Assembly (NCBI GenBank): GCA_004524565.1
Contig: SDNZ01000014.1
Location: forward strand, 1-32,940
Length of the DNA: 32,940 nucleotides
Source of the DNA: Candidatus Thorarchaeota archaeon
GTDB taxonomy: Archaea; Asgardarchaeota; Thorarchaeia; Thorarchaeales; Thorarchaeaceae
Reading direction: 5' to 3'
Below the pieces are notes generated by a model. It was not told the origin of the DNA. It worked only from the letters and a program-made list of their open reading frames with translations, and ran no database searches. Both the position numbers and the translations under genes were made by a program. Below, in pieces: positions 7,637 to 20,811 of this stretch. Position 1 is the first letter of the stretch; each line of letters opens with the position of its first letter.

Positions 7637-8821
7637 ATGTCGTTCGATCTAGAAAAATCAAAGTGCGAGCAAGCTGTTGAGCTACTGAAAGAACTTGATA
7701 TTGATGCATGGCTTGTTTGGGTCCGAGAGACCTCGCAAATTGCCGATCCTGTCATGGAACTCATTTTTGGAGGTGATGTTGTCTGGCAATCTGCTTTCCT
7801 TTTTACCAAGAAGGGGGACAAGATATCAATTGCTGGCAATTTTGATACTGATGGTATCAAAGCACGAGGTATCTTCGATCAAGTTATCCCATATACACAG
7901 GGAATCAAGGATGAGTTAGTTCGTCAGTTAGAGAAGTACAATCCTTCAAAGATTGCGATCAATTACAGTACTAATGATGTTGCCGCTGATGGTCTCACTG
8001 TGGGTATGCATATGATTCTGAAAGATTATCTAGAAGACACCCCATATGTTGAACGATTGATCTCTGGTGAGACTCTAGTTCAAAAACTTCGTGGAAGGAA
8101 ATCTGTCAAAGAGATTGAACGCGTAAAGAAAGCAGTTGCAATCACAGAGGAGATATTCAAAGCTGCTGAAGGGTTTGTGAGACCCGGAATGACTGAGATT
8201 GAGATATACAACCTATTCCATCACGAAATGGACAAGCATGGTGTCACAAGTGCCTGGAATGATGACCACAATCCTGCAGTGGATGCTGGCCCGAACAAAC
8301 AATTCGGGCATGCTGGTCCAATTGAAAACAAGACCAAGCCGGGCCATCTTCTTCACTTTGATTTTGGTGTACGGTACAAGGGCTACTGTTCAGACATCCA
8401 GCGGATGTTCTTCTTTGGTAAGGAAAAGGACATTCCCGAACAAGTTCAAAATGCCTTCGAGACCGTGCGAGACGGAATAATTGCAGCATCTGAATTCATT
8501 CGACCTGGAGTGCTAGGATATGAAGTAGATGCAATTGCTCGTGATTTCGTTACAGATGCAGGATATGAAGAGTATCAACATGCATTGGGTCATCAGATTG
8601 GAAGACATGCTCATGATGGTGGCGGTCTTCTTGGTCCTCAGTGGGAACGCTATGGTGATACCGTCAAACAACCTGTAGAATCTGGAAATCTCTTCACGCT
8701 CGAATTTTATGTTACCACAGAGGACTATGGTCAGATGAGTCTCGAAGAAGATATTGTGGTTACAAAGAATGGATGTGAGTTTCTCTCTCATCCACAGAAG
8801 AAATTGATTTGTATCAACTGA
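7637..8821 (+). CDS. M24-family metallopeptidase (Xaa-Pro peptidase-like)
   Basis: This 394-residue protein has a creatinase-like N-terminal domain (about 1-160) and a pita-bread catalytic domain. All five metal ligands of the M24 family are found: Asp242 (HFDFGV), Asp253 (CSDIQR), His319 (GHQIGRHAHD), Glu356 (LFTLEF) and Glu371 (MSLEEDIVV). It should be an active di-metal Xaa-Pro aminopeptidase or dipeptidase in the cytosol, though creatinase-type amidohydrolases share the fold. It is probably co-transcribed with the dehydrogenase upstream. Its last eight bases overlap the end of the convergent LarE gene. Confidence 0.88.
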   Translation: MSFDLEKSKCEQAVELLKELDIDAWLVWVRETSQIADPVMELIFGGDVVWQSAFLFTKKGDKISIAGNFDTDGIKARGIFDQVIPYTQGIKDELVRQLEKYNPSKIAINYSTNDVAADGLTVGMHMILKDYLEDTPYVERLISGETLVQKLRGRKSVKEIERVKKAVAITEEIFKAAEGFVRPGMTEIEIYNLFHHEMDKHGVTSAWNDDHNPAVDAGPNKQFGHAGPIENKTKPGHLLHFDFGVRYKGYCSDIQRMFFFGKEKDIPEQVQNAFETVRDGIIAASEFIRPGVLGYEVDAIARDFVTDAGYEEYQHALGHQIGRHAHDGGGLLGPQWERYGDTVKQPVESGNLFTLEFYVTTEDYGQMSLEEDIVVTKNGCEFLSHPQKKLICIN

Positions 8822-9629
8822 GATCAAGACCCTCGTCCATAGAACCAGTTCGATATCCCTTGAGATCTAGTGTTATATAGGCAAAACCTACGTCATGTGC
8901 CTGTTGCTCAAGCTCCTTCATCTTTGCCTGATTGAACATTTTGGGAAGTTCATTTGCACCTACTTCAATTCGAACTAAGTCACCATGATATCTTGCGCGA
9001 ACGCATTTCACATCGAAAATTGTCATCACAGCTTTTTCTACGGTTTCAACCATATGTAAACGTTCAAGGGTTATTTCTGTACCATATGGGAATCTTGTTG
9101 CCAGGCATGCCATAGATGGTTTATCTGCAACTGAGAGACCTCGATTTCGAGCATATTCGCGTATTTCATCCTTAGTTATGTTTGCCTGAAGAAAGGGTGA
9201 TTGTACAGCTGACTGTTCCAAAGCTTGTGCTCCCGGTCGATATCCTTCAGTTTCACTTGCAGTTGTCCCCTCAACTACTATTTCAAGACCCATCTCTTCA
9301 GCAGCTCTCATCCAATTCTGCGATAGGATCTTCTTACACGTGTAGCATCGATCAATCTCATTTGATGCTAGACTTTCTTCCTCTACCCAATTGAATTCCT
9401 TTACAATCAAATCTAGTTCTAGTTCCTTCGCAACTTCTTTCGCTCCTATTAGCTCACTCTCAGGAACGGTATTGCTGGAAATGATCAGAAGCTTCGTAGT
9501 TGATGCGACATCAGATACTACACTTGCCAGTACAGTACTATCAACTCCTCCACTGAATGCAACTAGAACCTTCTTTCCTAACAGGTCTTTTTTGATTGCA
9601 TCAAATTTTGCTATTGTTGAATCTTTCAT
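8814..9629 (-). CDS. larE: LarE-like ATP-dependent sulfur transferase
   Basis: This 271-residue N-type ATP pyrophosphatase has the PP-loop SGGVDST (26-32). In Lactobacillus, LarE adenylylates the nicotinate-derived precursor and donates sulfur for the nickel-pincer cofactor. The key motif PSMACLATRFPYG carries Cys175 at the place of the sacrificial cysteine. Two further cysteines form CYTC (Cys95, Cys98). LarE proteins with three conserved cysteines are known to hold a [4Fe-4S] cluster and to act catalytically instead of being consumed, so this one may be of that kind (inference). LarB, LarC and a lactate-racemase-like enzyme are not in the window. It lies 51 bases after speA on the same strand. 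Confidence 0.85.
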   Translation of the reverse strand: MKDSTIAKFDAIKKDLLGKKVLVAFSGGVDSTVLASVVSDVASTTKLLIISSNTVPESELIGAKEVAKELELDLIVKEFNWVEEESLASNEIDRCYTCKKILSQNWMRAAEEMGLEIVVEGTTASETEGYRPGAQALEQSAVQSPFLQANITKDEIREYARNRGLSVADKPSMACLATRFPYGTEITLERLHMVETVEKAVMTIFDVKCVRARYHGDLVRIEVGANELPKMFNQAKMKELEQQAHDVGFAYITLDLKGYRTGSMDEGLDLS

Positions 9630-9680: not shown

Positions 9681-11522
9681 TTAGCTATTCATGTACGGAT
9701 CTTCATCAACATTGATATCTGCATAACCAACATCCCTGAGGAGATGTTCAATTGACTCTGCACCTGTAATCCATGTGATTCCCCAAGTATTGTCCTCACG
9801 TAACCTTAACTCAACATCAGGGAGGTCTCCAAGTAGATTGTGATCCATCTCTATTGCATCCTGGTAGGCTCCAACTAATGCAAGGACAAAATGTGAGCCA
9901 GGAAGCCGATCAAGTATACCAACTGGAATTCCATCATTCATCATTCCACCAGGCATCGTAAGTGGTCGTTTATCCTTCGTGAACCAAACATTGTCTGTGT
10001 TCTGAAGATAGAAATGTGAAATCTCACCATCAGAATCACATGTGATATCCACAAGTCTAACCGTTGTTTCAGGATGAACATGCAGATTGGAGATTGGAAC
10101 AACCGGGAAATGTTGTTGTACAAGAACATAGTCTGCAATACTGTTGAAGACACTAAAATTACCAATAACAATGTGCTCAGGATGCCAAAAACTTCTGATT
10201 TGTTTTTCTGAAGTGAATGACTGAATTCCCAAAGCAACGAGTCTCTCACGTGTTGCTCTCTCTAAGATTCCAACAATCATTTCTCTCTCAAAGATTGCAC
10301 CCAAGCCTGCTAAAGACATTCCACCAAAATGTGAATGGAAATCATTCCAAATATCAACAAGATCCGTCAATTCGGTGACGTTACTTATTTTTTCAAGATA
10401 CTCCTCTTCTTTGGTTAATGCGGTCTCAGAAAAACACTCTCCACCAGGTGCGGGAAAAACAGACCGAACTTCGAGAGCTTCAACAATCACTAAGGCCGCA
10501 GGTGCTGTTATTCCTCTACCAGATTCTATCATGATATTTGGAAAAGGATGTTTACCGTGTGATTCCTTGAGCATTTCTTTGATGCCAAGTACAATGTTTC
10601 TCGCATATTGATACATCAGATCTGGAGGGTGCTTTCCTGTATAATCGATAGCTAATCCTCCTCCAAAATCGATGTTTTCTAAATTGGTCAATCCCATATC
10701 TCGTAATTGTGCATAAAGATTGGTTAGGAACTGACCAAATCTACTGAATGATTTGAGGTCTGTTATTTGAGACCCTGCATGGCCAAGAATTGTAGTGATT
10801 GATTCTGTAAATCCTGCCTGTGTGAGTAAATCTACTACATTGTAGAGATCATGAATACTGAGACCAAATTTAGAATCCCTTCCTGTGGAGTGGGACCAGT
10901 GTCCTTCTACATTCAAATAGGGTTTGATTCTGAACACCAACTCGGTCTTCTTGGGATCGAAGTGTTCCACAACCATTCTTGCTTCATGAAGTGATTCAAT
11001 TGAGATTGCTACCTTGAAACCTTTCTCCACTGATTCCCGGATAAGTCTAAGATAGTCTGGGTCCTTTGCTCCATTGCAGACAATACGTCTATGTTTCTCC
11101 TTTTTAATTACAGATGTGATAAGAAGTAGTTCAGCTTTTGTTCCTGCTTCCAACCCGTACTCAGAATCTGAACGAATTACAGAAGTTACGAAATCACTTC
11201 TTTGATTCACTTTCACTGGATATATTCCAATGAATTCTCCATCGTATTCTAACTCTTCGAATACTTTCTCGAATGTGGTTCTGAGTTTCTTAATCTGATA
11301 GGTTATGAGCTGCGGAATTCTCAGAGTAAATGATGAAACGTAGCCTGGCGATTTACCATTAGCACTCTTGATTTTCTGGACTATCTCATTGATAGTGATT
11401 TGCTCATCCTGTAGTTTAATACAAAGCTCACCACTCTCTAGAATATCCAAGAAGTGGAGGTCATTCCTACCAACTCCGAAGACGGTTCTTGCTTTATCGA
11501 TTGACCACGTCTCATCTGTCAT
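9681..11522 (-). CDS. speA: Biosynthetic arginine decarboxylase, SpeA type
   Basis: This 613-residue fold-III PLP decarboxylase converts arginine to agmatine for polyamine synthesis. The PLP lysine is in FIGIYPVKVNQ (Lys104), the glycine loop in NIDFGGGLAIDY, and the second active-site cysteine in VDITCDSDGE near residue 515. The length is close to the 630-660 usual for SpeA. Archaea generally make agmatine with pyruvoyl-type or AdoMetDC-like enzymes, so a SpeA-type gene suggests acquisition from bacteria or an early duplicate. It sits in a minus-strand run after the two Cache receptors, 33 bases downstream of the second. No agmatinase is seen here. Confidence 0.93.
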   Translation of the reverse strand: MTDETWSIDKARTVFGVGRNDLHFLDILESGELCIKLQDEQITINEIVQKIKSANGKSPGYVSSFTLRIPQLITYQIKKLRTTFEKVFEELEYDGEFIGIYPVKVNQRSDFVTSVIRSDSEYGLEAGTKAELLLITSVIKKEKHRRIVCNGAKDPDYLRLIRESVEKGFKVAISIESLHEARMVVEHFDPKKTELVFRIKPYLNVEGHWSHSTGRDSKFGLSIHDLYNVVDLLTQAGFTESITTILGHAGSQITDLKSFSRFGQFLTNLYAQLRDMGLTNLENIDFGGGLAIDYTGKHPPDLMYQYARNIVLGIKEMLKESHGKHPFPNIMIESGRGITAPAALVIVEALEVRSVFPAPGGECFSETALTKEEEYLEKISNVTELTDLVDIWNDFHSHFGGMSLAGLGAIFEREMIVGILERATRERLVALGIQSFTSEKQIRSFWHPEHIVIGNFSVFNSIADYVLVQQHFPVVPISNLHVHPETTVRLVDITCDSDGEISHFYLQNTDNVWFTKDKRPLTMPGGMMNDGIPVGILDRLPGSHFVLALVGAYQDAIEMDHNLLGDLPDVELRLREDNTWGITWITGAESIEHLLRDVGYADINVDEDPYMNS

Positions 11523-11555: not shown

Positions 11556-12995
11556 TTACTCTTCATCCTCTCTTATAGTATCGAGCATTCCTTGGAAAGC
11601 TCTGGCTAATTCACCTATCTCATCGTCTTTTGAGATATACGTTTGGTCCACTTGCAGTTCTGCAGTGTCCAAGGGCTCATCTCGAATCCTAGCTGCTGCA
11701 TTTCTCGTTGCTAGATCCATTAGGTATTGTAATGGCCGAGTAATAGTATTGGAAACCGATACTGCTACGATCCCTGCTATCACAATCCCTCCGATTGTCA
11801 CAAAGAGAATGAATTGAGCTGCTTCAGCATTTGCAGCTGCGATTCTTGCTTCAAGAGGTGGTATTGCCTCCAGTACTTCATTGAGTGGAACAGAAATCAC
11901 ACAGATGTATCCACCTTTTCCTACGGGAGTGAAAACCATGATACTCTCGTTATTGTTCTTGGTGTATCTCAAGGAACCCGAGGTCTCTGTCACCAGAGTG
12001 TTTCTGATATCATCCATATCATTCTCGGTAAGTGGATCTGTTGTACCAGTATCCTGTTCAATATCCAGTAGATATGGTAATCCCGCTAGATAATCTGTAT
12101 CTTCAACCTCTGGATGTGCTACAATCTCACCAAGTGAATTGAGCAAGAATGCGTAGCCACTTTCCAAAACACTCACGTCGATGACTTTGTCTTGAATGTC
12201 GCTTATGGTAATATCTCCAGAAATAACGGCAAGTGGGATTCCACCGCTATAGACCAGTTTTCCGATCGATATAAGCAAGACATTATCAAACTCATCATAG
12301 TATGGATCAACAAAGACGATGTCACCATTTCCTGATGCAATTTCCTGATACCAGAACTCACCTCTAGGATCATAGCTTGGATAGTCTAGAATACTACCTG
12401 GATAGTTTATGAAGAGTCCATCATCAGTAAATGCGATGTACAACCATCTGAAGTCGATTTGGTTATGAATCGAGTTGAAGATGTAGTCCATATTGGATAC
12501 ACGACCCAGTTTGTCAGATTCTGCAGCTTCATAGGTCAGGTAATTGGAAGCATCATAACTACGGTGGAACCAACTACTGTAGGTCCATGAGACGTTAAGC
12601 CCATAGTTGGCATCGTAGTGATTATCCGCAGGATCAGGTGCAATAGTATCATTCTCAAAGAGCTCGTTGAAGTAGACCTCTCGATTCGCATACGTAGAGC
12701 CCGATTCGAATAATGATTCTAGTTCTGTTGCTGCAGCTTCTATCATCCCTTGTGCACTGGATAGCTTCTGATTGATCACCAACGCGGTTTTTTCTGCTGT
12801 TGATTCCATATTATCTTCAATCTGTGTTTGAAGTGCCAGTGAACTCTCATCTCGTGTGAACCCTCCAATCAAGTCCACAAAAGTCAATGATACGAAACCT
12901 GTGGCAGAGAGTGAAACAAGTGAGATCACTACGAACGTGAGAATGACGTTTGTTCTAAAACTACCTTTTTTCTTGGTTTGTGTTGATTGTGCCAT
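11556..12995 (-). CDS. Membrane Cache-HAMP receptor without an output domain
   Basis: This 479-residue sensor-like protein has a membrane segment at about 16-38, an extracellular double Cache domain to about 380 (WLYIAFTDDG, EFWYQEIASGNG, then YAFLLNSLGEIVAHPE), a second membrane segment at about 387-412 and a HAMP domain to the end (ITRPLQYLMDLA, DDEIGELARAFQGM). It stops after HAMP with no kinase, methyl-accepting or cyclase domain. It starts 14 bases after the stop of the Cache-TPR-VWA protein and has a similar ectodomain, so it is probably a duplicate that works with that receptor. The ligand would be a small extracellular molecule such as an amine, amino acid or organic acid; the nearby speA makes a polyamine link a guess only. 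Confidence 0.85.
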   Translation of the reverse strand: MAQSTQTKKKGSFRTNVILTFVVISLVSLSATGFVSLTFVDLIGGFTRDESSLALQTQIEDNMESTAEKTALVINQKLSSAQGMIEAAATELESLFESGSTYANREVYFNELFENDTIAPDPADNHYDANYGLNVSWTYSSWFHRSYDASNYLTYEAAESDKLGRVSNMDYIFNSIHNQIDFRWLYIAFTDDGLFINYPGSILDYPSYDPRGEFWYQEIASGNGDIVFVDPYYDEFDNVLLISIGKLVYSGGIPLAVISGDITISDIQDKVIDVSVLESGYAFLLNSLGEIVAHPEVEDTDYLAGLPYLLDIEQDTGTTDPLTENDMDDIRNTLVTETSGSLRYTKNNNESIMVFTPVGKGGYICVISVPLNEVLEAIPPLEARIAAANAEAAQFILFVTIGGIVIAGIVAVSVSNTITRPLQYLMDLATRNAAARIRDEPLDTAELQVDQTYISKDDEIGELARAFQGMLDTIREDEE

Positions 12996-13009: not shown

Positions 13010-15868
13010 CTAGTAATCTACTGTTGTTCCTCCCACTTCGAGTTGTGCCATCAAGACTCCAATTTGCTCAAAGGCTCTCTCTATGTCCAACCTCACATTT
13101 GTGCTATCAACTACAGACAGATATTGCCCTTGCGGGATGCTTTCACAGATTGACTCAAGAAGTTCTTCAGTTGTCATCTTTTTACCTGTCTTTGGAGATC
13201 GCAGTCTCTTCTTAGTATCCACTGGGGATGCCAATTCTTGACCAACACCAATGACTATCAGGTTCACATCGAGATGGTTATCACGAATGAACCCTTCAAT
13301 GGTGAGGGGTCTCTTACGTTTGATCCGGTCCTTCTCAGTGAATATTCCTTCAAGAGCATCCAATGAATAGGTATCCGAACTATTGTCTTGACCATCGGTC
13401 AATGCGATAATCCATCTATGTTCACTTGATTCGATTTTATTTAGCTCCTCCAAAGCTCGTCCAAGTGCATCATAGAATGCAGTAGCATAATTGGGATACT
13501 TGAGAGAATCCAGTGCTTTCACAATCGTACTATCATCATCTGATTGCTCACCCTTGATAGTTAGAGGTAAGATCTCTCTGTAGGATGAATTGAAGATGAT
13601 GATTGATACTGCATCTTGCGGATTGACCTGACTAGCTAATATTTCCTTGGCACCATTAACAGCAGCCTTGATTCTCGATTGCGCTTGCATGCTACCAGAA
13701 TAATCAATGACGAAAGTAACGCTCTTCTTGTACCGAATCGAACGTTTGAGTCGTTCTGCCTTTCTTCGTATCTCATGGCTAGGTTTGTCCAGTTGATCAA
13801 GTACATCTGCGAGCCTTTGCATTGCAAAAACAACTAACCAGAGCTCATCAGTTTCCTCCCCGAATTTGATAGCATCACTGTATTCTTTTTCTGCCTTTCT
13901 CCAATGACCTTGTACCTGATAGAGCTCACCTTCGTGATAATGGATGTATGCAAGACTTCGATCGTACCCTATGGATTTCGCAATCTTTTGTGCCTCATCA
14001 AATTTGGATTGAGCTTGACTATATCTCCCATCTCTCATGAGTACAAGCCCCATCGCATCATATCGTCTGGCAAGACCATAAGAGTTCTTGATTGTGAGGT
14101 CGATAGCTTCAGCATCTTCTAGAAGTTTCATTGCTTTGTCTGCGTTTTTGAGGTCCATTTCAACGAGAGCCATGTTATGATAGGTAGATGCTACTCTCAT
14201 CATTGCATCTTTCTCATCAGCTCCATCTTCTTTTGCTCTTTCCAGAAGTCTGTTAGATATGGCTAATGATTGATTGTAGTAGTCCATAGCATCTGTTGTA
14301 TCTCCACGTTGTCTGAAAACATTACCAATGTTCAGGAGCATTGTCTGCTCTCCCGCCTCTATCTGTAGCCTTCGACTAATTTCAAGAAGGTTCTGATAGT
14401 TAGCGAGCGCTCGACGAAGATCGCCTCGGATGAATGCTTGATTACCGAAGCGACACGCTTCTTGGAAACTCAATAATGCATCTACCGTCGTTCCTACCTC
14501 TTCGTACATAGCCCCTGCTGTTGTTACACCACGCGTGAAGTCCTGTTTTGCCATTTTGCTAACAAGACGAGTCATCTCACGGATTGGTTCGACAACTGCC
14601 TCTCCTCGTCTTGATGAAACTGCTGATACAACCGCTGCTACTACTGCAAGAATACCTGCGAGGACACCGGTTAAAATTAGTGTCCTAGTAGCTACGAGAT
14701 TGAGGATTTCAGTTGCGGGAGCAATGACATCCGCGTCGGGGACTACAACAAGTAGTATATAGTCAGTATTTGGAATGTTAACGAAGGATAAATGCCAATC
14801 CAGGCCATTCTTCTGATACTCTAGCAATCCAAAGTCTTCTACTAAAACCTCAGTATTCAGTAAGTTTCTGAATGCTGTTGCTTCAGGGCTTCCAGATATG
14901 CCAAACTCAAGAGATTCAATTGATGCAACATCTTCATCATCTAATGGTTGATCTGGATGAGCCACGACATCACCATTTGTGTCAAGTAAGAACGCATAGC
15001 CATTTGTTGAAACATCAAGATTGAGAACCTTATCTAGTACTGTTCCCATTGTAACGTCTGCAGAAACAACACCAATAAGAGACCCATTATCAAATCTAAC
15101 TGGTCTACCCATTGAAATCACCAGACCTACTGGGTCAATATATGGTGCAGTGAATATTACATTATCATCAGAGGGACTGATTCCTGCTACATTTGTGTAC
15201 CACTCTTCACTATTTGCATCATAATCTTGACCTGGCCCATTCCAATCCAGAAAATATGATAATTGGTCAAAAGGATAGTTCCTAAACAGATGTTGGTCGG
15301 ATACAGCTAAATCGTAACCCATGTAGAGCCATTTATAGTCAGGATTCATTTCGTGCAGTGCTCTGAAGATATTAATCATATTTGATGAATAATCAAGTGC
15401 ATTTGCAGTTAATGTTGAATGGTCCTCTGGATCGTTATTGTTCCATTGATCGCGAGGGATGAAGTAACAATCTGTTTCAAATGAGATCGTATCCGATTCA
15501 TACGATTCTGTGATAGCAGGGTCTGTTTCGTAATCCAACGCACCCAAGCTTAGATCCACAGTCGGGTCCCAATAGTGTGAATATTGTGGCGCTGCTGTGA
15601 TCCGTTCATTGAACAAATCTTCGCAATACTGTTCCATCATATAGACTCCATCGATGTAGCTTTGCCATCTTTCTTGTATGAAGAGTGCAGTATCGTTGGA
15701 TAGTCTCTGAAGATTTGCTAGTTCCTCAGCTTTTAGTGCATCTGCTGCATCTCCTGCATTAGCATTGGCAACGGTAAATATTTGCCCCATTGATAATGCT
15801 GAAATTACGAGCATTGGCACTAGCGCCACAACTACGAATGTGACGACTATTCTCTTTGAAATATCCAT
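13010..15868 (-). CDS. Membrane receptor with Cache, TPR and von Willebrand A domains
   Basis: This 952-residue protein is anchored by membrane segments at about 8-30 and 397-419. Between them is an extracellular double Cache domain (WLYMGYDLA, then YAFLLDTNGDVVAHPD). Inside the cell follow a HAMP-like helix pair (about 420-466), about six TPR-like repeats (467-700; for example ALANYQNLLEIS, AMDYYNQSLAIS, AQSKFDEAQKIA) and a VWA domain from about 715. The VWA metal site is complete: DYSGS (Asp722, Ser724, Ser726), Thr796 and Asp825 in LTDGQDN. It should therefore bind a partner through Mg/Mn. The architecture reads as ligand sensing linked to protein assembly. It is 62 bases after the beta-propeller gene and 14 before the Cache-HAMP gene. 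Confidence 0.88.
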   Translation of the reverse strand: MDISKRIVVTFVVVALVPMLVISALSMGQIFTVANANAGDAADALKAEELANLQRLSNDTALFIQERWQSYIDGVYMMEQYCEDLFNERITAAPQYSHYWDPTVDLSLGALDYETDPAITESYESDTISFETDCYFIPRDQWNNNDPEDHSTLTANALDYSSNMINIFRALHEMNPDYKWLYMGYDLAVSDQHLFRNYPFDQLSYFLDWNGPGQDYDANSEEWYTNVAGISPSDDNVIFTAPYIDPVGLVISMGRPVRFDNGSLIGVVSADVTMGTVLDKVLNLDVSTNGYAFLLDTNGDVVAHPDQPLDDEDVASIESLEFGISGSPEATAFRNLLNTEVLVEDFGLLEYQKNGLDWHLSFVNIPNTDYILLVVVPDADVIAPATEILNLVATRTLILTGVLAGILAVVAAVVSAVSSRRGEAVVEPIREMTRLVSKMAKQDFTRGVTTAGAMYEEVGTTVDALLSFQEACRFGNQAFIRGDLRRALANYQNLLEISRRLQIEAGEQTMLLNIGNVFRQRGDTTDAMDYYNQSLAISNRLLERAKEDGADEKDAMMRVASTYHNMALVEMDLKNADKAMKLLEDAEAIDLTIKNSYGLARRYDAMGLVLMRDGRYSQAQSKFDEAQKIAKSIGYDRSLAYIHYHEGELYQVQGHWRKAEKEYSDAIKFGEETDELWLVVFAMQRLADVLDQLDKPSHEIRRKAERLKRSIRYKKSVTFVIDYSGSMQAQSRIKAAVNGAKEILASQVNPQDAVSIIIFNSSYREILPLTIKGEQSDDDSTIVKALDSLKYPNYATAFYDALGRALEELNKIESSEHRWIIALTDGQDNSSDTYSLDALEGIFTEKDRIKRKRPLTIEGFIRDNHLDVNLIVIGVGQELASPVDTKKRLRSPKTGKKMTTEELLESICESIPQGQYLSVVDSTNVRLDIERAFEQIGVLMAQLEVGGTTVDY

Positions 15869-15930: not shown

Positions 15931-17370
15931 CTACCCAGTCTGTACTCTCAACTCCTCGATTAGCTTCTCTACAAAATCACGAGAGCTCATTCTCTCGTCA
16001 AGAGCAAATAGATTTCCCTCTAGTGTTCCTTGAATAGCTCCTTCACCAAGAAGGATAATCAAGGTTCTTCGTAATAATGTCCGATCCACGCCAGTTTCTT
16101 TTTCCATTTTTTCTACATCAACTGTGTCGGCACCTTTGAGTAAATCAAGAAGAATTGATTGTACTCTTTTTGCATCCCTTTCATCGATTTTCTTGTATTT
16201 TAATTTCTTTTTAGTTCTAACAAAAGTACTGCCATCCAGATGACCCTCAATATTGTCACTCTGTATCATTGCCTGCAAACTACGTCTTAGATTATATGCG
16301 GCAGGTCGTGGAAGGGTCTTTCGAAGTATTCTATCTAATTCTTTGAGCTCAATCTGAGGGTGTTTTCCTGTAATCGAATCAATACTCTCTTGGATGTATT
16401 CTTCCGTTGCGTATTCCTCTATCATCTGTAGCGTGGCACCACATGATGCGCACTTTGGAGCTTCTGGCGATGCAGGTGCTCCACAATTACCGCATTTTAT
16501 TGCTCGGCGATATAGTGTTTCTTTAGTAGAGCCGATTTGCTGAAGAATCACCTTTTCACTACGTGAAACCTTACCAGTTTCTTCAACCTCCCAGAAACTC
16601 AGCTTCCTATCTTTAGTACTCACAACAAGGTATGCAATATCTGAGATATCATCAGGCACTCCAGTTGCCATGGACCTTGGGACATTTCCAACATCAAGCC
16701 GTTCAATCTCGTTTCCATCTATATCCCAGATTCTAAGTGTAGATGATAGATCTCCTGTCACGAATAATATTCTTTCATCAAATGATATCACTGCAAATAC
16801 GGTAATCTTGTTTCCAAACTGTAATTCTTTAAGATGATATCCTGCTGACGTCAAGATGGTAATCTTCCCTTTTTTGTCAGCTATAACAACTTCTAATTCG
16901 GTGTCTTTTGTAATATCTTCAAGCCAAACATCTGCAATCGGTTCGTCAATATTCCTTGTGAAGATTGCATCCTTATCATTATTATAGAGAATAACTCGAT
17001 TGTTTTCGAGAGCTACCACAACTTCTGCAGCATCATCACCATCTACATCTCGCGCATCACAAGCTATGACATCACTTTCCAATCTGATATTCCAGATAGT
17101 ACTCCCTCTATGATCTACCACAAGGACCTTCTTTCCTACTCCGCCAACGAGAGCATCCTTCCCATCTCCTATAATATCAGCAACTGCAATACATCGTACT
17201 TTACTACTCCATTTTCGAGTGCTACGAAGTGTACCCTGAGCATCAAAGACCCTCATACGGTCTCCGTAATCGAGAGAAAATATCTGTGCACTTGTATCCC
17301 TCTTCTGTCTGACGTAAACAGAGTAGACATTAGCTGTTGTAGGTACATTGGCAATCGCGCGAATCTTCAA
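15931..17370 (-). CDS. Beta-propeller, zinc-ribbon and winged-helix protein
   Basis: This 479-residue soluble protein has three parts. Residues 1-275 are repeated four-strand blades with FG-GAP/WD-like sequence (VADIIGDGKDALVGG, DVDGDDAAEVVVAL, DITKDTELEVVIAD). Residues 293-310 form a zinc ribbon with two CxxC pairs (Cys293, 296, 307, 310). Residues 335-457 hold two similar helical/winged-helix units, each ending in a beta wing (IEGHLDGSTF, IQGTLEGNLF). The C-terminal units recall PCI-type or DNA-binding winged helices, which I cannot tell apart by eye. It is the first gene of the run leading to the Cache receptors, so it is a candidate cytosolic partner of the VWA receptor. A scaffold role is as likely as a transcription role. 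Confidence 0.7.
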   Translation of the reverse strand: MKIRAIANVPTTANVYSVYVRQKRDTSAQIFSLDYGDRMRVFDAQGTLRSTRKWSSKVRCIAVADIIGDGKDALVGGVGKKVLVVDHRGSTIWNIRLESDVIACDARDVDGDDAAEVVVALENNRVILYNNDKDAIFTRNIDEPIADVWLEDITKDTELEVVIADKKGKITILTSAGYHLKELQFGNKITVFAVISFDERILFVTGDLSSTLRIWDIDGNEIERLDVGNVPRSMATGVPDDISDIAYLVVSTKDRKLSFWEVEETGKVSRSEKVILQQIGSTKETLYRRAIKCGNCGAPASPEAPKCASCGATLQMIEEYATEEYIQESIDSITGKHPQIELKELDRILRKTLPRPAAYNLRRSLQAMIQSDNIEGHLDGSTFVRTKKKLKYKKIDERDAKRVQSILLDLLKGADTVDVEKMEKETGVDRTLLRRTLIILLGEGAIQGTLEGNLFALDERMSSRDFVEKLIEELRVQTG

Positions 17371-17439: not shown

Positions 17440-18516
17440 ATGAGTTTTTCAGGAAAATGTAACATTGGGTTTCTCTGGAGCGAACTTCTTGAGAGTTTCG
17501 ACTTTGGTTCGAAACATCCTATTCAGATAGGTCGTTTCAGGATGTTGCGTGACTTCATTAGAGAGAATGGTTTTCTTGATTGTCCTAATGTACAGATAAT
17601 CAATCCAGAACTTCTTTCAGAGGAACTCCTAAAGAAAACTCACTCTGCTGAATACATTGCTAAGATTCAGAATATTTCTGAAACTGGAGTTGGAGACATA
17701 GACATAGATACTCCTGGGTTCAAGAATATCTACTTCCACTCACGAATTGCTTCAGGCGCATCAGTTACTGGTGTTCATTCAGTTATGTCTGGTGATATTG
17801 ATCATTTCATCTCTCCGACAGGAGGGTTTCATCATGCAAGTTTCGAGAAAGGGGGTGGTTTCTGTATAATCAACGATGTTGCTGCTAGCGTCCTTGCACT
17901 GAAAGAATACGGTCTCAAAAGAATTTTAGTAGCAGATTTTGATGTTCATCATGGTAATGGAACACAAACTTATTTCTATGATGATCCTGATGTCATGCAA
18001 ATCTCCTTTCACGAGGATCCAGAATGGATGTTTCCACATGATGGTTTAATCCACGATATCGGATCTGGTGCAGGTCGTGGTTATAACATCAATATGCATT
18101 TTCCAATGGATGCTGGCGATTCTGTATACCAATATGCATATGATGAGTTGGTCCCCAAATTGGTCAATTTTTACAAACCTGATTTCATTATTTTCATTCC
18201 CGGATTTGATGCTCACTACTTGGATCGACTTGCTCACCTTACAATTACGACAGATATGATTCGTTATATTTCAGAATCAATCCACAAGGCTGCTCATCGC
18301 CATTCGGATGGACGTATGGGTGTTCTGACCGGTGGAGGATATACTCGCACCTCATTGAAATGGGGATTTGCCACGGTAATGTCCGTACTCGCAGATCATC
18401 CATATCAACCCCCAGTCCAAGAACCTCCCTTCGAAGATGATGAAGAAACTTGGAATGTTGTACGTTCCAATGTCAGTAAGGTAAAGGATTTGGTCTTTTC
18501 AGAACTTGGAATCTAA
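17440..18516 (+). CDS. Histone-deacetylase/AcuC family Zn deacetylase
   Basis: This 358-residue protein of the arginase/deacetylase fold removes acetyl groups from lysine side chains or small amines such as acetylpolyamines. Zinc ligands are Asp168 and His170 in VADFDVHHGNGT and Asp257 in IPGFDAHYLD. The charge-relay histidines are His131-His132 in GGFHHA, and the catalytic tyrosine is Tyr302 in LTGGGYTR, so the active site is intact. It is transcribed alone and its stop overlaps the end of the convergent corrinoid protein gene by four bases. A GNAT acetyltransferase is present elsewhere in the window, but a link between them is not shown. The substrate could be an archaeal chromatin protein, a metabolic enzyme or a polyamine. 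Confidence 0.9.
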   Translation: MSFSGKCNIGFLWSELLESFDFGSKHPIQIGRFRMLRDFIRENGFLDCPNVQIINPELLSEELLKKTHSAEYIAKIQNISETGVGDIDIDTPGFKNIYFHSRIASGASVTGVHSVMSGDIDHFISPTGGFHHASFEKGGGFCIINDVAASVLALKEYGLKRILVADFDVHHGNGTQTYFYDDPDVMQISFHEDPEWMFPHDGLIHDIGSGAGRGYNINMHFPMDAGDSVYQYAYDELVPKLVNFYKPDFIIFIPGFDAHYLDRLAHLTITTDMIRYISESIHKAAHRHSDGRMGVLTGGGYTRTSLKWGFATVMSVLADHPYQPPVQEPPFEDDEETWNVVRSNVSKVKDLVFSELGI

Positions 18517-19208
18517 GAAAGCTCTTCGATGAATCTCTTAGCGATTTCAACTGAGCTCATTGCATCTTTACCAAATGCATCTGCTCCAGTGTATTCCATT
18601 ATACTTTGGTCAATATCGCCGCCACCAATCATGACCTTTACACTATCTCGGATTCCAGCTTTGGACAATGCTTCGATTGTTTGTTTCATCACGTCATGAG
18701 TTATTGTGATCAACCCACTCAATGCAAGAACTTTGGCACCTGTTTCTTTGAGTTTTTCAATGAATTTTTCAGCTGAAACATCTTCACCAAGATCAAAGAC
18801 TTCAAACCCGTTAGAAAGCAAAAAAGCTACAACAAGATTCTTTCCAATATAATGAACATCTCCTGCGACAGTACCAATTACAATCTTGCCGCTCCCCTCT
18901 TCTTTCTGAGTAGAGAGTAATTCAGGCTCTAATATCTCCATAGCCCGTTTAAAGATCTCAGCTGACATAACAAGTTCGACTAAGAAGTATTCGTTATCTG
19001 AGAATCTTTGTCCAACTATATCCATACCCTTTTTCAAGTCACCAAGTATCTGGAATGGTTCCGTTCCTTCTTCTAGGTGCTTCTTGATTAGGGCTATCAC
19101 CGTTTCGTCTTCAATATCTGCCATTGCTGTAATCAAGTCGTTCATAGTAAGCTTGTCTCCGTCGTCCATTATATTGAGGAACAAAATCGAGAATGTATGT
19201 CGCTTCAT
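18513..19208 (-). CDS. Corrinoid (B12)-binding methyl-shuttle protein
   Basis: This protein of about 231 residues matches MtaC/MtbC-type corrinoid proteins, which carry a methyl group on cobalt between two methyltransferases. The N-terminal four-helix cap is followed from about residue 110 by the Rossmann-like B12 domain. Its lower cobalt ligand is His in GDVHYIGKN (DxHxxG), with later SGLITITHDVM and GGGDI motifs. The frame begins at 19208, but the methionines at 19169 (MDDGDKL) and 19145 (MNDLITA) fit the family start better. It follows the RACo-like activator by 10 bases. No substrate-specific methyltransferase lies in the window, so the methyl donor is unknown. Confidence 0.88.
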   Translation of the reverse strand: MKRHTFSILFLNIMDDGDKLTMNDLITAMADIEDETVIALIKKHLEEGTEPFQILGDLKKGMDIVGQRFSDNEYFLVELVMSAEIFKRAMEILEPELLSTQKEEGSGKIVIGTVAGDVHYIGKNLVVAFLLSNGFEVFDLGEDVSAEKFIEKLKETGAKVLALSGLITITHDVMKQTIEALSKAGIRDSVKVMIGGGDIDQSIMEYTGADAFGKDAMSSVEIAKRFIEELS

Positions 19209-19218
19209 ATATCTTTCA

Positions 19219-20811
19219 TTATTGCAACGAAATAGATTGCAAGAAGACCTCTTGGAATCTCTCTTGTGATGCTAGCTCTATGTATTGGGTTTCTTTCACA
19301 AGTCTCTCCGCGAGTTCTCTATTCTTTTTCGAAAGGAGTAAACCTTTCGCCCCCTCTCCTGCTGCGTTACCTACAGGAATAATCTGAGAGACCTCAACTT
19401 TCGGAAGGAGCCCTATTGCCAGTGCACTTTCAGGCCGGATATAATTCCCAAATGCTCCTGCAAGTAGCACTCTATCTATCTCAGATACACTTTTTCCCAC
19501 TCTTTCTAGAAGTAGTGTAGTACCTGCTTGAATCGCTGCTTTTGCTAGTTGGACCTGCCTAACATCCTTTTGTGTGAAGATGATCTGATTTCCCTGAACA
19601 TTCTCATCCTTTGTTACTATAAGGTATGATAGTCCCTGTTTTTCGTTCTCTTGAACTCTTATCGATTGCTTGAGTAATCGACCTGTGTTATCTATGATAC
19701 CCACCTTAAGTAATTCAGCAACTACGTCAACAATTGCAGATCCGCATAACCCTCTGGGAATGCTTTCTCCTATGATTGATATCTCTGGCCGCCCATCTTT
19801 GTTTTCAATTGAAAGATATTCAATTGCACCAGTTTGGCCTCGCATCCCGTGAAGGATAGTAGATCCTTCAAAGGCTGGTCCTGCAGCTGCAGAGCAGCAA
19901 TACATTTTGCCATGATCTGAGAGAACTATTTCTCCGTTAGTACCAATATCAATTCCAATAACAACATCATCTGCTAAATCCAGTCTTTGTGAAAGAATGA
20001 ATCCTACTGTGTCACCACCTACAAAACCTGCAATATTAGAAGGCAAGTAGAGTTCAGAATCATCACTCATTTGGATTCCAAGTTGCTGTGGTTTTATTGT
20101 TGTAGGTCCAGAAATCGAAGGTAGGTATGGTGACAGTCCAAGTGTGATTGTATCTGCTGCAAGGAGAAGATGATGCATGGCAGTATTACCAACGACAACG
20201 ATTCGCCTAATTTGATTCAAATTAATTCCTGTGTTCTCTACTAGTTTACTAATTTGATGATTGATCTCGTTGACGACTCGTTCTTGAAGTATGATTGCTC
20301 CATCTTTCTCTCTTGCAGCATAGGTGATGCGAGATATCACATCTTCCCCATAGGCAGTCTGTGGATTCAAAGATTCCACCTGAGCTATCTGATTCCCATT
20401 TGACAACTCGAGAAGATACGCTACCATTGTTGTAGTGCCAAGATCTAGTGCAATACCAAACTGATTCTGTAGTTGAGGGTCGATAGTCCATTCCTTGGTT
20501 TCTGATTTACTAAGTATCTTGACCTGTTCTTTTCTTTGCGGTAACATAATTCTGGTCTGTTCTTCTATCTGGTATCGACAAGCTAAACGCGCTCCAATCC
20601 TCAATTCTCCAGATGATAGATGTTCTATATCTTGGTCGGTGGGATCTCTTGTTGGATGAACAACCACACGACATTTCCCACAAGATCCCCTTCCCCCACA
20701 ATCTGATGAAATGTGAAGTCCGACCTTACGTGTAGCTTCTAGGATAGTGGTTCCACTTTCGACTAACACCCTGAGACCTGATGGTTCGAATATCACCACT
20801 ACATTCGACAT
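19219..20811 (-). CDS. RACo-like reductive activator of corrinoid proteins
   Basis: This 530-residue protein reduces inactive Co(II) corrinoid to Co(I) with ATP. The N-terminal plant-type [2Fe-2S] ferredoxin has Cys38, Cys44, Cys47 and Cys78 (C-x5-C-x2-C-x30-C). From about 115 onward is the ASKHA-fold ATPase/DUF4445 part (FGIALDLGTTTMVAYLL, IGIDIGTNGEI, LAGAFGNYI). This layout is that of RACo and differs from RamA, which has C-terminal [4Fe-4S] clusters. It precedes the corrinoid protein by 10 bases, so that protein is its likely client; the divergent Rdh-like enzyme, also corrinoid-dependent, is a second possible client. The start is ATG 20811 behind AGGTAGTG. Confidence 0.92.
   Translation of the reverse strand: MSNVVVIFEPSGLRVLVESGTTILEATRKVGLHISSDCGGRGSCGKCRVVVHPTRDPTDQDIEHLSSGELRIGARLACRYQIEEQTRIMLPQRKEQVKILSKSETKEWTIDPQLQNQFGIALDLGTTTMVAYLLELSNGNQIAQVESLNPQTAYGEDVISRITYAAREKDGAIILQERVVNEINHQISKLVENTGINLNQIRRIVVVGNTAMHHLLLAADTITLGLSPYLPSISGPTTIKPQQLGIQMSDDSELYLPSNIAGFVGGDTVGFILSQRLDLADDVVIGIDIGTNGEIVLSDHGKMYCCSAAAGPAFEGSTILHGMRGQTGAIEYLSIENKDGRPEISIIGESIPRGLCGSAIVDVVAELLKVGIIDNTGRLLKQSIRVQENEKQGLSYLIVTKDENVQGNQIIFTQKDVRQVQLAKAAIQAGTTLLLERVGKSVSEIDRVLLAGAFGNYIRPESALAIGLLPKVEVSQIIPVGNAAGEGAKGLLLSKKNRELAERLVKETQYIELASQERFQEVFLQSISLQ

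Follow-up and report, generated by a model that had tools for sequence, protein, structure and literature searches.

The main gene of the window (the whole Thorarchaeal stretch of 32,940 nucleotides that was analysed) appears to encode one of the two subunits of an Asgard transmembrane receptor, namely the one that bears the output; it would form a heteromer with the product of the paralogous gene beside it (Table 1). For the explanation as a whole, namely a two-subunit Cache receptor with ligand-driven, MIDAS-dependent protein recruitment, we estimate a probability of roughly 0.5. What sets the system apart is that a Cache-HAMP receptor carries an apparently new output and is constantly accompanied by a paralogous partner. 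In the loci checked, the gene always occurs with this second sensor gene and in most cases with genes for a propeller protein and an arginine decarboxylase, which suggests an ancient and so far undescribed route by which outside signals reach the cell interior.

Table 1. Features of the receptor locus and its linked genes, in window positions.
Feature	Position	Strand	Details and basis
Main gene, TM1-dCache-TM2-HAMP-TPR-VWA protein	13010..15868	-	952 aa, ATG start
TM1, residues 7-25	15794..15850	-	hydropathy
Extracellular dCache ectodomain, residues about 36-380	14729..15763	-	Pfam, model, Foldseek
Pocket stretch YDANSEEWY, residues 216-224; Glu221 at PctA Arg126 position	15197..15223	-	PctA alignment
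TM2, residues 396-414	14627..14683	-	hydropathy
HAMP-like linker, residues about 415-470, degenerate in window copy	14459..14626	-	Pfam in homologues
TPR array, residues about 471-712	13733..14458	-	Pfam, model
VWA domain, residues 715-945, predicted cytoplasmic	13034..13726	-	Pfam, model
MIDAS DxSxS: D722, S724, S726	13691..13705	-	identical in 60/60 homologues
MIDAS Thr796	13481..13483	-	T in 59/60 homologues
MIDAS Asp825	13394..13396	-	D in 58/59 homologues
Paralogous partner receptor, TM1-dCache-TM2-HAMP, without output domain	11556..12995	-	479 aa; Pfam, hydropathy
SpeA-like (probably biosynthetic) arginine decarboxylase	9681..11522	-	Pfam, NCBIfam, neighbour clustering
Beta-propeller - zinc ribbon - two winged-helix protein, cytoplasmic	15931..17370	-	479 aa; Pfam, model

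Among prokaryotic extracellular sensors, Cache receptors are the principal type. The earlier note on this DNA had read the gene as a Cache ectodomain joined to TPR repeats and an intracellular VWA domain, and Pfam matches above the cut-offs, predicted folds and membrane topology all agree with this order. The dCache_1 profile (PF02743) matched residues 213-374 of the main protein (E 1.5e-13, 51.3 bits against a curated cut-off of 45), TPR_12 matched three stretches (E 3.3e-17), and VWA_2 matched residues 717-827 (E 2.9e-13), the latter two also above their curated cut-offs. The AlphaFold2 model, made with an alignment of 41 homologues, reached a mean pLDDT of 82.6. After a long helix and a tandem alpha/beta Cache (about 36-380) comes the TM helix; HAMP-like helices lead to a TPR array of about 11 helices (484-711), and the C-terminal part folds as a Rossmann-type VWA domain (715-945). 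These boundaries lie close to those proposed before. The pTM of the model is only 0.43 and confidence in the HAMP region is low, with signal geometry outside the model's reach. In a Foldseek search with the model, dCache structures ranked near the top, among them PctA (1.4e-9) and alpha2delta (1.7e-9). The two hydropathy-derived TM segments place the Cache domain outside and TPR-VWA inside. None of the domains expected from other receptors (kinase, MCP, GGDEF, cyclase, phosphatase) was found as output domain with Pfam and NCBIfam.

DxSxS, Thr and Asp are all present at the predicted metal site of the VWA domain. The five MIDAS residues that had been named from the sequence (Asp722, Ser724, Ser726, Thr796 and Asp825) proved exact, and they are near-invariant over about 60 Asgard homologues. 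We can sensibly infer that an outside ligand signal is turned into metal-dependent protein binding through this domain.

An assembly join of two genes could be ruled out by the full-length, single-frame homologues (36-87% identity) present in many genomes; with tblastn, query residues 1-952 were matched in 12 further Thorarchaeota or archaeon MAG contigs. Occurrence was surveyed in 227 genomes of the phylum, 189 other archaea and plasmids, with bacteria hardly sampled. Strong matches to the main protein or its paralogue were found in 70 of the 227 genomes (26 of 61 genera), and the same domain order is kept across many Asgard genera. No full-length homologue was detected in the 189 other archaeal genomes, which contained only partial matches corresponding to the Cache-HAMP part of ordinary receptors, to TPRs, or to VWA alone. 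In these archaea, the Cache matches start no earlier than profile position 150, which is also the pattern of ordinary receptors. Plasmids yielded only TPR or MCP fragments, covering at most 26% among the matches listed.

The earlier note had treated one gene as the system. Its architecture and metal site were right; what it overlooked were the HAMP segment and the adjacent paralogous receptor. The partner gene lies directly downstream of the main gene, 14 bp apart, and its product matched dCache_1 with 66.6 bits (cut-off 45) and HAMP with 25.3 bits (cut-off 25) in Pfam. Counted at E limits of 0.1 and 1, a Pfam HAMP match follows TM2 in 23 of 41 main homologues and 37 of 38 partner homologues, the main copy of the window being below detection. 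In all 62 loci checked (about 55 distinct places), the main and partner genes are direct neighbours on one strand, usually with an intergenic gap of 0-16 bp. In a tree of the Cache domains, main and partner proteins formed separate clades (support 99/98) with similar branching within each, indicating a single duplication before the sampled families parted, followed by joint inheritance. In L017/L077 (G213), a single TAA splits the main gene, which may reflect error or decay.

The strongest sign that main and partner proteins work together via their membrane and HAMP segments is a joint loss of the Cache domains in family f20 (such labels follow the numbering used in this analysis). In five genomes of this family, both genes lack Cache and are reduced to TM1-short loop-TM2-HAMP, and the main gene still encodes TPR-VWA. 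A homologous multi-TM gene of 244-251 aa lies immediately upstream in all five Cache-less loci with a readable upstream contig. L060 and L061, two other members of f20, still have Cache, and L060 has no multi-TM gene upstream. Joint Cache loss combined with the upstream multi-TM gene makes the sensor look exchangeable with the output retained, and this replacement suggests that the output half can be transferred as a module. The persistence of TPR-VWA with its MIDAS after both subunits have lost Cache is also what one would see if the tail were a fixed scaffold, or a factor that helps to assemble, say, a membrane complex. In that case, Cache would only adjust how stable the tail is or where it sits, and no recruitment would be gated by a ligand. 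Assembly factors indeed often contain TPR and MIDAS-VWA domains. However, HAMP, a signal-relay module, is kept with the pair even in the Cache-less versions, and the multi-TM gene occupies the upstream place in these operons. A purely static role is, in our view, unlikely.

The ectodomains were aligned to PctA for a view of the ligand pocket. The amino-acid motif dCache_1AA reads Y....R.WY ... Y ... D, in which the Arg binds the carboxylate (PMC9901441). At these six positions, the main protein has Y216, E221, W223, Y224, Y243 and D271, and the partner Y208, E213, W215, Y216, Y232 and D261. Hence both window proteins keep five of the six residues found in PctA and alpha2delta, and both have Glu in place of the carboxylate-binding Arg126. 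Among Cache-bearing homologues, this position is Glu in 22 of 37 main proteins and Glu or Asp in 29 of 35 partners; the main proteins of f11 and f12 have Gln, Tyr or Trp. Three main homologues (L055, L056 and L059) keep the Arg and with it the whole YxxxxRxWY stretch. These three, together with the five retained residues, would fit an ordinary dCache_1AA amino-acid sensor, as in PctA and alpha2delta, coupled to an unusual output. The motif Arg is, however, absent from both window proteins, and the acidic exchange recurs in the homologues at the frequencies given; we therefore rejected ordinary amino-acid sensing for the window and hold it to be quite improbable as a general explanation.

What marks the amine motif dCache_1AM is an insertion together with an Arg-Asp pair that lies above the pocket (PMC10104139). 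At the shared positions, the Asgard proteins have W, Y and D, and the placement of the insertion and the Arg-Asp pair is uncertain in the alignment. TlpQ, a dCache receptor for polyamines and histamine, has a strongly negative pocket (PMC6234866). With TlpQ and McpU, the Asgard receptors share the dCache domain and an acidic pocket as expected for cationic ligands (PMC6234866), whereas sequence similarity is weak (E about 0.007-0.01 with the partner profile) and the output of TlpQ and McpU is an MCP domain. Taken together, the change from Arg126 to Glu in both pockets and the likeness to the acidic pocket of TlpQ favour, and suggest, a cationic ligand for both window pockets. With SpeA encoded next door, an amine is a reasonable guess. 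A strict link between pocket Glu and SpeA was unsupported, as some families that lack SpeA have acidic residues too.

When neighbouring genes were clustered, the only clusters present in at least three Asgard families were the Cache pair, the beta-propeller protein (6 families) and the arginine decarboxylase (5 families). In the window, the run propeller-main-partner-SpeA has gaps of 62, 14 and 33 bp. Against the SpeA equivalog model NF003763/TIGR01273, the window protein scored 352.9 bits (cut-off 369), and its relative in L047 scored 385.5, above the cut-off. The decarboxylase gene is located downstream in the Thorarchaeal, f8 and f11 loci and is divergent in f9. Its place beside the pair in five Asgard families and two orientations, including an overlap with the partner gene in L045/L046, raises the possibility that the pair senses extracellular polyamine or agmatine and that SpeA is controlled by either the VWA domain or the propeller protein with its winged helices, which would place arginine decarboxylase or polyamine synthesis under direct regulation. 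This is a narrower form of the recruitment explanation, and the two are not mutually exclusive. The receptors of f18-f21, however, have no SpeA nearby, and the pocket change does not strictly track SpeA. Direct control of SpeA can thus be proposed only tentatively. The final gene of the Thorarchaeal run (8814-9629) encodes a LarE-like sacrificial sulfur transferase, above the NCBIfam cut-off; it was rejected as a member of the module, being kept only among Thorarchaeal neighbours. Beside the module, positions 17440-18516 and 18513-20811 encode a histone-deacetylase-fold protein, a B12-binding protein and a RACo-type corrinoid reactivator, which are kept in near relatives.

The model of the propeller protein (pLDDT 85) shows a propeller, then a zinc ribbon, then two winged helices. 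Its tail varies from family to family, several of which have zinc modules there, and in f8, f11 and f12 its gene is not adjacent to the pair. The protein is probably a client or co-factor of the receptor. The propeller (15931-17370) gave weak profile matches to the BBS2, BBS7 and ITFG2 families and structural matches to the BBSome, IFT-A and KICSTOR, all of which probably reflect general propeller likeness. In integrins, a VWA-type I domain is likewise set against a beta-propeller, and the Asgard locus encodes a MIDAS-VWA and an FG-GAP-like propeller side by side. In contrast to integrins, the Asgard domains are cytoplasmic and there is no sequence relation beyond the folds, so that the comparison is an analogy only.

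In the mechanism that we favour, ligand-driven recruitment, the Cache-HAMP-TPR-VWA and Cache-HAMP paralogues would most likely assemble via their membrane and HAMP segments. A small extracellular ligand would bind the Cache pockets, in the Thorarchaeal version probably a cationic one (an amine, agmatine or polyamine). The resulting movement would travel from TM2 through HAMP to the TPR-VWA tail, which would gain or lose a MIDAS-dependent grip on a cytoplasmic protein; the leading candidate for this cytoplasmic protein is the linked beta-propeller/zinc protein. The output would be protein recruitment and not phosphorylation, cyclase activity or chemotaxis. Here we infer that the VWA domain is the signalling output, that the propeller protein is its partner and that the ligand belongs to the class named.

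The bacterial and archaeal chemoreceptors and kinases with dCache_1 (PctA, Mlp24 and mmHK1) resemble the Asgard pair in the fold, the pocket positions and the relay through TM and HAMP segments. They differ in that the pair has no MCP, kinase, cyclase, GGDEF or phosphatase output and in that the distal half of the Asgard ectodomain is unmatched in them. According to a 2016 census, Cache outputs comprise chemotaxis, kinase, c-di-GMP, phosphatase, cyclase, Ser/Thr kinase and transcription, as well as VWA_N/VGCC_alpha2 in ion-channel proteins; a cytoplasmic VWA is absent from these classes, and Cache in archaea and eukaryotes was attributed to horizontal transfer (PMC4822843). A receptor with a cytoplasmic MIDAS-VWA output would be a further type. 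The earlier note knew of no described system with this order, and a literature search that reached few subscription papers returned no description of a Cache-HAMP-TPR-VWA receptor.

Alpha2delta, a subunit of animal Cav calcium channels, is the target of gabapentin. Like the Asgard main protein, alpha2delta and CACHD1 combine a dCache ectodomain and a MIDAS-bearing VWA domain in one protein. In alpha2delta, the VWA lies outside the cell as an insertion within the first dCache (PMC9901441), whereas the Asgard VWA is C-terminal and predicted to be cytoplasmic, behind TM2-HAMP-TPR. Membership in the alpha2delta family was rejected because of this different position and because other VWA domains are closer to the Asgard VWA than that of alpha2delta.

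When a profile of the partner's distal ectodomain was compared with the whole PDB, it matched alpha2delta-1 (3.5e-6) and CACHD1 (0.006), the next hit being DNA polymerase kappa (0.27). The corresponding profile of the main protein matched alpha2delta-1 at 7.6e-4. Matches of the full-length partner to alpha2delta span both sides of the point of the latter's inserted VWA. The proximal Cache half scored higher against PctA, that is, against bacterial receptors, than against alpha2delta. VWA_N (PF08399), the Pfam family for this distal region, was above the cut-off in three Asgard genomes and at E<=0.001 in ten, and the window proteins themselves are not among these matches. The matches above the cut-off always lie in these Cache genes; the weaker ones lie there or in VWA-less cousins. 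The reading of VWA_N as a general feature of archaea was rejected, as it was found in none of about 165-170 non-Asgard genomes and none of 14 control genomes. At the sequence level, a distal ectodomain common to the Asgard receptors and alpha2delta is thus supported, and sharing it makes the origin of alpha2delta testable. It is more doubtful whether the receptors form a distinct ancient signalling class with metal-dependent protein recruitment as output, two co-inherited paralogues with exchangeable sensors, and an ectodomain that is the nearest prokaryotic relative of that of alpha2delta/CACHD1, with Asgard as candidate source.

A cousin locus with two adjacent Cache genes without VWA was seen in L085, L086 and L087 (f9). 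In L085, the gene beside these cousins encodes leucine-rich repeats with a weak Pfam match to a prokaryotic RING finger. Similarity to this gene weakly suggests a C-terminal RING/FYVE-like zinc finger in the partner receptor of L059 (6063-7697), and weak matches suggest that the propeller protein of f9 carries one C-terminally as well (L047, 6314-7621).
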